From Barnesiella viscericola DSM 18177 (GTDB taxonomy: Bacteria > Bacteroidota > Bacteroidia > Bacteroidales > Barnesiellaceae), in contig NZ_CP007034.1 of assembly GCF_000512915.1 (NCBI RefSeq), forward strand, positions 1,674,001 to 1,738,000: a stretch of DNA of 64,000 nt. Direction: 5' to 3'. The translations under genes and the position numbers were made by a program. This document shows positions 41,688-47,119 of this stretch, piece after piece; position 1 is the first letter of the stretch; each line of letters opens with the position of its first letter. A model generated the notes under the pieces. That model worked only from the letters and a program-made list of their open reading frames with translations, was not told the origin of the DNA and searched no databases.

Positions 41688-43490
41688 ATGAAGACATTTC
41701 AAGAACTGGGTATCTGTGACGAGATACTGAAAGCGATTACCGAATTGGGATATGAAAACCCCATGCCCGTACAGGAACAGGTAATCCCCCACCTGCTGAA
41801 CGAAGAGACCGATCTGGTCGCCCTGGCCCAGACCGGAACGGGCAAAACCGCCGCCTTCGGTCTGCCCGTGATACAACGCATCGATCTCGGCCTATGCCAG
41901 CCACAGGCCCTTATCCTGTCGCCCACCCGCGAGTTGTGCCTGCAAATCGCCGGCGACCTTACCGACTATTCGCAATATATCGACGGGCTGCGCATACTCC
42001 CCGTCTACGGTGGCTCGAGCATCGAGAGCCAGATAAGAAGTCTGAAAAAAGGGGTGCACATCATCGTGGCCACTCCGGGTCGTCTGCTCGACCTGCTCGA
42101 ACGCAAAACCGTGCGACTCGACCACGTCTCGACCGTCATCATGGACGAGGCCGACGAGATGCTCAACATGGGATTCCTCGACAGCATCAACGCCATTCTC
42201 GCCCAGGTACCTCAGGAGCGCAAGATGCTCCTCTTCTCGGCTACCATGCCGCGCGAAATCGAACAGATAGCCCGCACCTACATGCACAATCCGCAGGAGA
42301 TTGTGGTGGGCAGCCGCAACGAAGGAGCCGAGAATGTGCGCCACGTCTACTACATGGTACACGCCAAGGATAAATACCAGGCTCTCAAACGCATTGCCGA
42401 CTATTACCCCAACATATACGGCATCATCTTCTGCCGCACCCGCCGCGAAACTCAGGAGATTGCCGACCAGCTCATTGCCGACGGCTACAACGCCGACTCG
42501 CTGCACGGCGAGCTGTCGCAGGCCCAACGCGACGCCGTAATGCAGAAGTTCCGCCTGCGCAACCTGCAACTGCTCGTGGCTACCGACGTGGCGGCTCGCG
42601 GGCTCGACGTGACCGACCTGACCCACGTCATCAACTACGGTCTCCCCGACGACATCGAGACCTATACCCACCGCAGCGGCCGCACCGGCCGAGCGGGTAA
42701 ATCGGGCGTATCGGTCGCCATCATTCACAGCCGTGAGAAGGGCAAGATGCGTGCCATCGAAAAGATTATCGGCAAAAAGTTCGAACGGGGACTAGTCCCC
42801 ACCGGCGAACAGATTTGCGAGAAGCAGCTCTTCAACCTGGCCGACCGCATCGAGAAGGTGAAGGTAAACGAAGAGGCTATTGCCAAATTCCTGCCCAACA
42901 TCTCACGCAAGCTGGGGTGGCTCACCGAGCAGGACCTCATCAAACGCATCGTATCGCTCGAATTCAACCGCCTGATCGACTACTACCGCGATACCCCCGA
43001 TCTCGACCTCCCCGACGAGAATACCCGCAAACCCAAAGGCGAATCGGCTGCCAAGGGCGACCGAAAAGGACGTGACAAAGACTCCCGCACGGCCGAGGAG
43101 GGATTTGAGCGCATCTACATCAACCTGGGTAAAGCCCACGGCTTCTTCCCGCCCAACCTCATCGAGATGATCAACTCGCTCGTGCCCGGGCGGGTCAACA
43201 TCGGACGCATCGACCTGCTGCCCGCCTACTCCCTCTTCGATGTCGAGAAGGGTGCCGCCAAGAAGGTGGTCGGAGCCTTGAAAGGGTGCGAATTTTACGG
43301 GCACCGCATCTATGCCGAGATTGCCACCGACAAAGACTACGCCGGCAAAGGCCGACGCAAGGGCAAGGAGGGCGACAGCCGACGCAAAGGAGGCGACAAG
43401 CACTACGGTTCGGCCCGGAAAGGCGGTTCGGACAGTCGCTTCAAGCATGAACACCGCCCGTCAAACTCCCGTAAGGAGCGACGGAAATAG
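41688..43490 (+). CDS. DEAD-box RNA helicase with DbpA-type RNA-binding domain (DeaD/CsdA-like)
   Basis: A 600-residue helicase with the motifs in order: Q motif near FQELGI...PMPVQ, AQTGTGKT (47-54), DEAD (153-156), SAT (184-186) and HRSGRTGR (328-335). A DbpA RNA-binding domain follows (FERIYINLGKAHGFFPPNLIEMI, about 470-545). The last 55 residues are a Lys/Arg/Gly/Ser-rich tail. It should remodel structured RNA in ribosome assembly, mRNA decay and cold adaptation. It has its own promoter and long leader. Confidence 0.93.
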   Translation: MKTFQELGICDEILKAITELGYENPMPVQEQVIPHLLNEETDLVALAQTGTGKTAAFGLPVIQRIDLGLCQPQALILSPTRELCLQIAGDLTDYSQYIDGLRILPVYGGSSIESQIRSLKKGVHIIVATPGRLLDLLERKTVRLDHVSTVIMDEADEMLNMGFLDSINAILAQVPQERKMLLFSATMPREIEQIARTYMHNPQEIVVGSRNEGAENVRHVYYMVHAKDKYQALKRIADYYPNIYGIIFCRTRRETQEIADQLIADGYNADSLHGELSQAQRDAVMQKFRLRNLQLLVATDVAARGLDVTDLTHVINYGLPDDIETYTHRSGRTGRAGKSGVSVAIIHSREKGKMRAIEKIIGKKFERGLVPTGEQICEKQLFNLADRIEKVKVNEEAIAKFLPNISRKLGWLTEQDLIKRIVSLEFNRLIDYYRDTPDLDLPDENTRKPKGESAAKGDRKGRDKDSRTAEEGFERIYINLGKAHGFFPPNLIEMINSLVPGRVNIGRIDLLPAYSLFDVEKGAAKKVVGALKGCEFYGHRIYAEIATDKDYAGKGRRKGKEGDSRRKGGDKHYGSARKGGSDSRFKHEHRPSNSRKERRK

Positions 43491-43675: not shown

Positions 43676-43706
43676 TTGCACAACTGCTGAAAGCTATGTA
43701 TATTTG
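43676..43706 (+). promoter_or_regulatory. Promoter of the Fic-family gene
   Basis: TTG (43676-43678), 20 bases, then TATATTTG (43699-43706), 20 bases ahead of the start codon. The 235-base gap upstream holds nothing else I can identify. Confidence 0.6.
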
Positions 43707-43725
43707 TATAAAATATGGATAAATT

Positions 43726-44838
43726 ATGGATATACTCTGCAAGATAAAAGCCTCTGAACGAGAAGCCGAGGCATTACAACAGACGCTGCATGAAATAGAT
43801 GAATTGTCAACTCGGTGGAACACCCTCTGCGCCGCCCCCTTCGACCCCGAGCGAATGTCACCGGGTATCGAGACAACCATAGCGGCATCACTCGCTCTCG
43901 AAAATATGCCTTACTCCCCTTCGCTGGTTCACAAAATAGTGACCGACAAAACTCACTCCGGGAGCAAAACGGAGAGTCTGATACAGGGCTATTACACGAT
44001 ACTGCAAGCGCTCTATGCCGATGCCCATAAATACCCCTTGTGCGAGGATACCATCGTAGCCCTGCACACCGCCCTGTTCCCCAATGGCAAAGAGAACTCG
44101 GGCAGCCACGCTACGACTCGCCCCGCAGCGGTCAACTTTCTCGACTACAAGGCACCCACCCTTTTCAACCGCAGCCGCACGGTATCGGTCAACAACGAGA
44201 TACGCGACCTGGTCGAATGGACCAATCGCGAACTGACCCGCAGCGACCATCACCCGCTCGTAATCATCGCCGCCTTTACCTACGAGTTCATCTCGATACA
44301 CCCGTTCCGTGAAGGGAAAGGCGAACTCTCGCGCATACTCTCGACCCTGCTGTTGCTCCAAAACCACTACGAATGGGCCCGCGCCACATCGATCGACAGC
44401 CTCATCGAGCAACAATGCTCGACCTACTACCAAACCCTGAAACGCGGACAACAGAACCGCTACTCCTCACAGGAGAATATCACGGCATGGGTCCTGTTCC
44501 TGTGCAACATCTGGTTGCAGGCTTTGCGCAGCCTCGTTACCAACCTTCCCGAACCCGAGGTTGCTCCGCCAGTCTCTCCCTCGGGAGAGCTCCACACCCC
44601 ATCGTCGGCGACTCCAGCCGAAAACCCTGCAACACCCCCTGTCTACCTCAACAGCCGGCAAAAACGGGTTCTGGCTGTTCTTGAACGGGAAGAACCGGCC
44701 AAAGTGAGTGACCTTGCACATCGGTTGCAGGGAGTATCCATCAATACCTTGAAAAAAGATCTGCTCTATCTGCGACAGCACAATCTCATCACCGCACACG
44801 GAGTACTCAAAGGGACCATATACACCTTGAAAAAATGA
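43726..44838 (+). CDS. Fic-family protein with degenerate active-site motif and C-terminal winged helix
   Basis: A 370-residue Fic protein. The inhibitory-helix motif S/TxxxE(G/N) is present as SLALEN (55-60), which would make it class II. The Fic loop is HPFREGKGELSR (192-203): the catalytic His192 and the last Arg are kept, but the canonical HPFxxGNGRxxR Asn is Lys199 and the first Arg is Glu200. Residues about 312-370 form a winged-helix domain (RVLAVLEREEPAKVSDLAHRL). Typical Fic enzymes AMPylate Ser/Thr/Tyr targets; here the chemistry may differ or be lost. It has its own promoter and no toxin-antitoxin partner. Confidence 0.85.
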   Translation: MDILCKIKASEREAEALQQTLHEIDELSTRWNTLCAAPFDPERMSPGIETTIAASLALENMPYSPSLVHKIVTDKTHSGSKTESLIQGYYTILQALYADAHKYPLCEDTIVALHTALFPNGKENSGSHATTRPAAVNFLDYKAPTLFNRSRTVSVNNEIRDLVEWTNRELTRSDHHPLVIIAAFTYEFISIHPFREGKGELSRILSTLLLLQNHYEWARATSIDSLIEQQCSTYYQTLKRGQQNRYSSQENITAWVLFLCNIWLQALRSLVTNLPEPEVAPPVSPSGELHTPSSATPAENPATPPVYLNSRQKRVLAVLEREEPAKVSDLAHRLQGVSINTLKKDLLYLRQHNLITAHGVLKGTIYTLKK

Positions 44839-44962: not shown

Positions 44963-45919
44963 ATGAAAAGAATTCTTGTAATCGGATCGACCGGACAGAT
45001 AGGTTCGGCCCTCATGACGAAACTCCGCAATGAGTATGGAAACAATAATGTCGTAGCCGGATATATCGAGGGGGTACCCCTGAGCGATGACCTGAAATAC
45101 GGAGGCCCCTTGGAGGTGGCCGATGTGACAAACGCGCCACAAATCGCGGCTATCGTCGACAAATACAAAATCGACTCCATCTACAACCTGGCTGCCATAC
45201 TCTCGGCACAAGCCGAAAAAAAGCCCTTGCTGGCCTGGAATATCCAAATCGGCGGTGTGCTCAATCTGCTCGAAATCTCACGCGAAAAAGGCTGCTCACT
45301 CTTTACTCCCAGCTCCATTGGAGCTTTCGGCGACTCCTCGCCCAAAGTAAAGACCCCGCAAGAGACCATACAGCGCCCCCGCACCATCTATGGGGTGAGC
45401 AAGGTATCGTGCGAACTGTTGAGCGATTACTATTTCTACCGCTACGGAGTCGACACCCGCTCGGTGCGATTCCCCGGCCTCATCTCCTACGAAACCCTGC
45501 CGGGCGGCGGTACCACCGACTATGCCGTCGAGATTTACTACGCGGCCGTGAAAGGCGAGAAATTCGAAATTCCGGTCAAGGCGGGGACCTTCATGGACAT
45601 GATGTACATGCCCGATGCCCTCAAAGCCATGGTCATGTTGATGGAGGCCGACCCTTCGCGACTGAAACACCGCAACTCGTTCAACATCGCCTCCATGAGC
45701 TTCGATCCTGAAATCATCTACCACGAAATCAAGAAATTCTATCCCGATTTCGTGGCCGAATACAAAATCGATCCCGTGCGCCAGCAGATTGCCGACTCGT
45801 GGCCCGACCTGCTCGACGACTCCTGTGCCCGCGCCGAATGGGACTGGAAACCCGACTACGACCTCGAATCGATGTCGGTCGACATGATTGAACACCTGAA
45901 AAAGAAACTTCTTAAATAA
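44963..45919 (+). CDS. L-threonine 3-dehydrogenase, SDR (epimerase-like) type
   Basis: A 318-residue extended SDR. The NAD-binding loop GSTGQIG is at 8-14 and the active-site YGVSK follows SSIGAFG. MDMMYMPDALKAMVMLM in the C-terminal part is characteristic of the bacterial SDR-type threonine dehydrogenase rather than sugar epimerases. It converts L-threonine to 2-amino-3-ketobutyrate. The next gene, six bases away, is kbl, which uses that product, confirming the assignment. Confidence 0.9.
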   Translation: MKRILVIGSTGQIGSALMTKLRNEYGNNNVVAGYIEGVPLSDDLKYGGPLEVADVTNAPQIAAIVDKYKIDSIYNLAAILSAQAEKKPLLAWNIQIGGVLNLLEISREKGCSLFTPSSIGAFGDSSPKVKTPQETIQRPRTIYGVSKVSCELLSDYYFYRYGVDTRSVRFPGLISYETLPGGGTTDYAVEIYYAAVKGEKFEIPVKAGTFMDMMYMPDALKAMVMLMEADPSRLKHRNSFNIASMSFDPEIIYHEIKKFYPDFVAEYKIDPVRQQIADSWPDLLDDSCARAEWDWKPDYDLESMSVDMIEHLKKKLLK

Positions 45920-45925
45920 ACGCCT

Positions 45926-47119
45926 ATGTTCACACGAATGAAAGAGTATCTGGCCCACGAACTAGCCGACATCAAGGCTAACGGCCTGTACAAAGAAGAA
46001 CGTACCATTATCACTCCGCAAAGTTCGGCCATCAGAATTGCCGAAAAGAACGGAGAAGTGCTCAATTTCTGTGCCAACAACTATCTGGGACTGTCGGACA
46101 ACCCCCGCCTCATCGCCGCCGCCAAGAAAGCGATGGATACCCACGGGTTCGGCATGTCGTCGGTACGCTTCATCTGCGGCGCCCAAGACCTGCACCGCGA
46201 ACTCGAAAAGGCGATTGCCCGCTATTTCAAAACCGAAGATACCATTCTCTACGCCTCTTGCTTCGATGCCAACGGAGGTGTGTTCGAACCCCTCTTCACG
46301 GCCGAAGATGCCATCATCTCCGATGCCCTCAACCACGCCTCGATTATCGACGGTGTACGCCTCTGCAAGGCCAAACGCTACCGTTATGCCAACGCTAACA
46401 TGGAGGAGCTGGAACATTGCTTGCAGGAGGCTCAGGCTCAACGCTTCCGCATCATCGTGACCGACGGTGTCTTCTCGATGGACGGCAACGTGGCTCCCAT
46501 GGACAAAATCTGTGAACTGGCCGAGAAATACGATGCACTGGTCATGGTCGACGAATGCCACTCGGCCGGGGTCGTAGGCCCTCGCGGACGGGGTGTGAGC
46601 GAACTGTTCAACCTCTACGACCGCATCGACATACACACCGGTACGCTGGGCAAAGCCTTCGGCGGCGCCATCGGCGGTTTCACCACCGGTCCCAAAGAGA
46701 TTATCGACATGCTGCGCCAGCGGTCGAGACCCTACCTCTTCTCCAACTCGCTGCCCCCTGCCGTGGTGGGCGCCGGTATCGAGGTGTTCAAGATGCTCGA
46801 CGAGAGCGACGAACTCCACGACCGTCTGATGGAGAACGTCACCTACTTCCGCGACAAGATGATGGCTGCCGGATTCGACATCAAGCCCACCCAGTCGGCT
46901 ATCTGCGCCGTGATGCTCTACGACGCCAAACTGTCGCAAACCTTTGCCTCCCAAATGCTCGACGAGGGTATCTACGTAACCGGATTCTACTATCCCGTCG
47001 TTCCGCAAGGTCAGGCCCGTATCCGCGTACAGCTCTCGGCCGCTCACAAGCGCGAAGAGCTCGACGCCTGCGTCAACGCCTTCATCAAGGTGGGTAAGAA
47101 CCTCGGTGTTCTCAAATAG
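45926..47119 (+). CDS. kbl: 2-amino-3-ketobutyrate CoA ligase (glycine C-acetyltransferase)
   Basis: A 397-residue PLP enzyme of the alpha-oxoamine synthase family that splits 2-amino-3-ketobutyrate with CoA into glycine and acetyl-CoA. NFCANNYLGLSDNPRL is the family opening, MVDECHSAGVVGPRGRG binds the cofactor, and the PLP lysine lies in TLGKAFGGAIGG. It forms an operon with the threonine dehydrogenase gene and is followed by a terminator. Confidence 0.95.
   Translation: MFTRMKEYLAHELADIKANGLYKEERTIITPQSSAIRIAEKNGEVLNFCANNYLGLSDNPRLIAAAKKAMDTHGFGMSSVRFICGAQDLHRELEKAIARYFKTEDTILYASCFDANGGVFEPLFTAEDAIISDALNHASIIDGVRLCKAKRYRYANANMEELEHCLQEAQAQRFRIIVTDGVFSMDGNVAPMDKICELAEKYDALVMVDECHSAGVVGPRGRGVSELFNLYDRIDIHTGTLGKAFGGAIGGFTTGPKEIIDMLRQRSRPYLFSNSLPPAVVGAGIEVFKMLDESDELHDRLMENVTYFRDKMMAAGFDIKPTQSAICAVMLYDAKLSQTFASQMLDEGIYVTGFYYPVVPQGQARIRVQLSAAHKREELDACVNAFIKVGKNLGVLK

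Follow-up and report, generated by a model that had tools for sequence, protein, structure and literature searches.

Fic proteins are defined by their loop, which is degenerate in many members. One such member is encoded in a 64,000-nucleotide stretch of the Barnesiella viscericola DSM 18177 genome (contig NZ_CP007034.1, positions 1,674,001 to 1,738,000; hereafter the window). The protein does not fit the Fic signature HxFx(D/E)GNGRxxR. GKGE stands in place of GNGR, and it is the Asn and the first Arg that fail. An original prediction from the sequence alone offered two possibilities: the protein has lost catalysis and retains the regulator, or it is an enzyme that uses a different donor. It also took the Asn and first Arg to bind the nucleotide phosphates, in agreement with the literature. 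In competent Fic enzymes the Asn and the first Arg contact the alpha- and beta-phosphate, respectively; the partner of the second Arg is the gamma-phosphate or, in the inhibited state, the inhibitory Glu (PMC3667792). Here we ask what a Fic protein with such a loop is kept for.

The features of the locus are collected in Table 1. The open reading frame is intact and has no internal stops. The sequence bears out the two substitutions that had been read in the loop, Asn to Lys and first Arg to Glu. The inhibitory helix (SLALEN, residues 55-60), said to be intact, is so and matches the N-terminal inhibitory motif (S/T)xxxE(G/N). The protein matches Pfam Fic (PF02661) at 41.8 bits (cut-off 24), and the nearest solved structure by sequence search is PDB 8uqu (E 6.5e-20). 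An AlphaFold2 model (pLDDT 87.4) has a Fic fold, with a Foldseek match to 8uqu (3.2e-9). Model confidence falls below 50 at residues 124-152, which cover the region of the beta-hairpin flap, although the flap sequence itself is largely conserved across Barnesiella. Neither the C-terminal winged helix-turn-helix (wHTH, residues ~305-368) nor the probable repurposing as a transcription regulator figured in the original prediction. The Pfam HTH_DeoR match is weak in the window protein, but six of the seven genus members with the gene match it (best E 1.8e-5), and the region is modelled with high confidence as helix-helix-helix-strand-strand. Outside the window, the same genome encodes another Fic protein (L035, G000:C1:943490-943861) whose loop, HPFEDGNGRIAR, is canonical; a canonical Fic is therefore not lacking in this organism.

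Table 1. Coordinates of the Fic-wHTH gene, its parts and its neighbours (window positions)
Feature	Position	Strand	Basis or remark
DEAD-box RNA helicase	41688..43490	+	upstream neighbour (synteny marker)
Bacteroidetes-type promoter	43676..43706	+	TTG 43676-43678; TATATTTG 43699-43706; sequence, alignment
Conserved leader TTGTATAAAATATGGATAAATTATG	43704..43728	+	ends in start codon; candidate operator
Fic-wHTH protein, 370 aa	43726..44838	+	ORF; orthologs in 7/9 genus members
Class II inhibitory motif S55-LAL-E59-N60	43888..43905	+	S, E, N invariant in 7 Barnesiella proteins
Target-dock flap region VNFLDYKAPTLFNR, residues 136-149	44131..44172	+	alignment
Altered Fic loop HPFREGKGELSR, residues 192-203	44299..44334	+	sequence; alignment; dN/dS
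K198 (Asn to Lys)	44317-44319	+	codon
E200 (first Arg to Glu)	44323-44325	+	codon
C-terminal wHTH, DeoR-like, residues 305-368	44638..44829	+	Pfam, model
NAD-dependent epimerase	44963..45919	+	downstream neighbour (synteny marker)
Glycine C-acetyltransferase	45926-47119		after epimerase

The altered loop is fixed in the genus. Orthologs of the gene, which lies in a genome of 3.08 Mb, were sought in nine Barnesiella species and found in seven. All seven read GKG (six GKGE and one GKGI, with Ile at position 200), so the variant is neither chance nor error. The sign by which a recent mutation or sequencing error was to be recognised, GNGR in close relatives, was looked for and found in none of the seven orthologs. 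The catalytic His (His192), Phe194, the Mg-binding acid (Glu196), both nest glycines, the second Arg (Arg203) and the inhibitory Glu59 are invariant in all seven species. Over residues 186-212 Barnesiella species pairs differ at 0-1.7% nonsynonymous versus 24-39% synonymous. The resulting dN/dS is 0-0.036, whereas the gene as a whole has about 0.21-0.26; both values are rough because synonymous distances are high. Purifying selection on the altered loop is strong.

A recent mutation or sequencing error as the origin of GKGE is ruled out by the conservation of the change in seven species at 56-79% pairwise protein identity and by the low dN/dS. The wider reading, in which a decaying gene is also counted, is highly improbable, given in addition the lack of internal stops and the conserved leader. 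It draws on the gene being missing from two of the nine genus members. In six of the seven species the Fic gene is flanked by the same two genes, for the DEAD-box helicase and the epimerase, and in the seventh the helicase is some 4.6 kb further away. The two genomes that lack it (G003 and G004; loci L093 and L092) have the same neighbours with only 283-325 bases between them. This is a clean absence, and the gene is thus dispensable in those two species.

The conservation of the site speaks for an enzyme whose chemistry has changed. Its GKGE loop would use another donor (a different nucleotide or a diphosphate-linked group) or a different mode of binding, with His192 as the base and Glu59 as the inhibitor, and DNA binding may localise or switch the enzyme, as proposed for CbFic2. 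The catalytic and inhibitory residues besides Asn and the first Arg are invariant, and selection on the loop is strong. Other non-canonical loops do perform other chemistry, such as that of AnkX (HxFxDANGRxxV), which phosphocholinates (PMC3667792), and in BepC a Lys at the Mg-acid position contacts the alpha-phosphate of bound AMPPNP (PMC8401265). However, in the Barnesiella protein an acid replaces the first Arg at the beta-phosphate site, and in one species position 200 is Ile.

The relatives of the gene place this loop in context. Order-wide searches covered some 390 Bacteroidales genomes; at the thresholds used, roughly one genome in eight has a member of the family. The 26 relatives outside the special groups (alignment A4) served as the canonical reference set. 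His, Asn and the second Arg are present in 26/26 and the first Arg in 25/26; the N and G are kept by every one of these proteins from other Bacteroidales. Proteins added by a class-wide search mostly have the canonical loops HPFQDGNGRLSR or HPYQDGNGRLSR. The canonical class II Fic-wHTH proteins of Bacteroidia (HPFQDGNGRLSR) and PDB 8uqu share domain order and fold with the window protein, and the former are its nearest relatives in the tree. They differ from it in their canonical loop and in their patchy distribution, with varied gene neighbourhoods. A common mobile neighbourhood was considered for these canonical relatives and rejected because the contexts vary, as judged by eye only. Close copies on plasmids or phages were not found, the best match having about 27% identity. 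This distant full-length Fic relative (hit H9) lies on a 16.8 kb Wolbachia plasmid record (NZ_CP101659.1).

A full-length homolog is present in 9/9 genomes of a sister family, f22. In the tree, Barnesiella (seven proteins) and f22 (nine) group together in a single clade among canonical relatives (support 98/91), a placement that is good but leaves some doubt because of long branches and deviating composition in some f22 rows. In f22 the active site has eroded. His192 is kept in 3/9 proteins, the inhibitory Glu in 1/9 and the second Arg in none, the flap is altered or lost, and Pfam detects Fic in just 3/9. A K or R stands at position 198 in 7/9, an acidic residue at 199 in 8/9 and an E at 200 in 5/9; these residue counts suggest that the basic/acidic pair predates the split of Barnesiella and f22. 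Mean pairwise identities for motif and wHTH are 0.95 and 0.42 in the canonical set, 0.98 and 0.70 in Barnesiella, and 0.33 and 0.66 in f22, and are to be compared as ratios within each group since overall divergence differs between groups. Constraint in f22 has thus shifted to the DNA-binding end. The closest f22 pair has a dN/dS of 0.16 for the gene and 0.10 for the wHTH, which indicates purifying selection in this one pair. An f22 protein without the motif is still modelled as Fic (pLDDT 82.9; PDB 4rgl 4.9e-7, 8cil 1.4e-6), although the model may be steered by Fic relatives in its alignment. At 5/6 f22 loci examined the gene and gpmI are divergently oriented and the neighbours are conserved. 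The gpmI/f22-gene intergenic region holds a conserved block with TTCGCGAA in several species (L094-L098), a possible candidate operator.

Eroded loops also occur outside this clade. Those of L117 (DGCGRLSR), L126 (EGNRRLTH; its inhibitory Glu is also replaced) and L041 (DRNSSLSC) belong to a separate group of three, which sits on long branches among the canonical proteins of the tree, and a single protein, L166, has an eroded-looking loop that reads IDPFEKGNLPLGN. The wHTH region is kept in all four. These cases suggest repeated loss of the active site, and those seen in single genomes may be decaying genes.

Because f22 has mostly lost the catalytic and inhibitory residues and kept the wHTH best, loss of AMPylation is favoured. 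The erosion likewise counts against the altered enzyme, since f22 discards the catalytic His in six and the second Arg in all nine proteins. That reading is possible, and it keeps a third of the weight because the rest of the catalytic and inhibitory residues do not vary in Barnesiella. Of the two outcomes first proposed, lost catalysis gains from f22, but the picture of a regulator merely left over is too simple. With the loop under strong selection and the His, Mg-binding acid, second Arg and inhibitory Glu invariant, a changed activity is possible.

The explanation we favour, by a little over even chances, is that a class II Fic-wHTH protein became a non-AMPylating transcription regulator, of which Barnesiella represents an intermediate with a reshaped pocket still under selection. 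The ancestor would have been a class II Fic-wHTH protein with the canonical HPFQDGNGRLSR loop, a type that is patchy in Bacteroidia. The gene would have become vertically inherited in the Barnesiella and f22 lineage, and AMP transfer would have been lost. With Lys198 and Glu200, the Barnesiella protein is expected to lack the alpha- and beta-phosphate contacts. Lys198 might still reach a phosphate, but Glu200 would repel it. Glu200 starts the helix whose N-terminus is the anion nest and probably acts as a built-in anion in place of the phosphate, the Glu59-Arg203 pair presumably being retained as a lock. The Fic fold would then serve as sensor or scaffold and the wHTH would bind DNA.

Work on FICD bears on how much activity might remain. 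Its Arg371Ser variant, at the first-Arg position, has no detectable deAMPylation, its AMPylation is partly compromised, and nucleotide binding and stabilisation are weaker (PMC9994480). By analogy, deAMPylation is predicted to be lost in the Barnesiella protein, and AMPylation is probably but not surely lost. Since Arg371Ser still AMPylates in part, loss of the first Arg alone is not fatal to catalysis, which counts against a regulator. So does the retention of invariant active-site residues and of much of the flap region, which DNA binding alone would not require. Nor does the erosion in f22 show that the Barnesiella protein is inactive. The pocket might instead be a nucleotide sensor, a pseudo-enzyme and sub-case of the regulator reading, which binds a ligand without chemistry and thereby controls the wHTH. 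This is unlikely. It is in keeping with a conserved pocket that has lost its phosphate contacts, and FICD R371S with the inhibitory Glu removed retains some nucleotide binding (PMC9994480). However, support for a ligand is absent, and conservation of the His is unneeded for binding alone.

For a non-AMPylating regulator, the first target of the wHTH would most likely be its own promoter over the conserved leader, as an autoregulator comparable to CccR. That this is the sole target promoter indicated counts against a regulator. The genus form of the leader, TTGNATAAAATATAGATATATTATG, follows a Bacteroidetes-type promoter upstream of the seven Barnesiella genes. Identity over the 20 bases that immediately precede the start codon is 0.87-0.91 for the Fic gene, compared with 0.68-0.80 for the helicase gene and 0.43-0.50 for the epimerase gene. 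Allowing up to three mismatches, the leader pattern occurs in the nine genomes once at each of the seven genes with two other matches, does not occur in the two Barnesiella genomes without the Fic gene, and in reversed form has zero occurrences in the nine. Most species have an inverted repeat, AATATA-GA-TATATT, inside the leader, which is imperfect in the window (AATATGGATAAATT). The leader fits a putative operator for autoregulation; it is AT-rich and could alternatively have a role in translation.

The closest known systems show parts of this arrangement. CccR of Yersinia pseudotuberculosis also joins an N-terminal Fic domain to a C-terminal HTH, and it binds a palindrome at its own promoter and represses it (PMC9755527). 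However, CccR has a near-canonical loop (HPFGNGNGRTVR), AMPylates FtsZ and is a secreted effector (PMC9755527), whereas secretion is not indicated for the window protein. CbFic2 of Coxiella burnetii (PMC10628234; PDB 8cil, a structural match) has the same class II layout of inhibitory helix, Fic and C-terminal DeoR-type HTH, but with a canonical HPFDDGNGRIGR loop and both AMPylation and deAMPylation. Conserved non-canonical loops are found in BepC and other Bartonella Beps, with no enzymatic activity found for BepC and progressive motif changes in the BepA/B clade (PMC8401265). The Beps differ in being class I, host-targeted and without a wHTH, and their substitutions are others: Lys for the Mg-binding acid and Glu for the second Gly (PMC8401265). 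CccR and BepC are precedents for the regulator reading.

New functions for degenerate Fic proteins have been suggested earlier (PMC3667792, PMC4454073). No description was found in open papers of the GKGE loop, its genus-wide conservation or the graded series into a motif-less sister family that keeps the wHTH; the same papers hold none on the Barnesiella gene or on any Bacteroidetes Fic-HTH regulator, which does not prove their absence. More tentatively, and at somewhat less than even chances, Bacteroidia may contain a family of pseudo-Fic transcription regulators in which the AMPylation site has been repeatedly dismantled while fold and wHTH were kept. In the Barnesiella/f22 clade K/R198 and acidic residues at 199/200 would fill the phosphate nest to give a non-catalytic switch, with Barnesiella as the intermediate step. 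The proteins form a graded series, from the canonical site through a GKGE loop in an otherwise intact site to the motif-less state, and along it the DNA-binding domain takes over from the active site as the constrained part. The series makes it testable at which step catalysis was lost and what the Fic fold is kept for.
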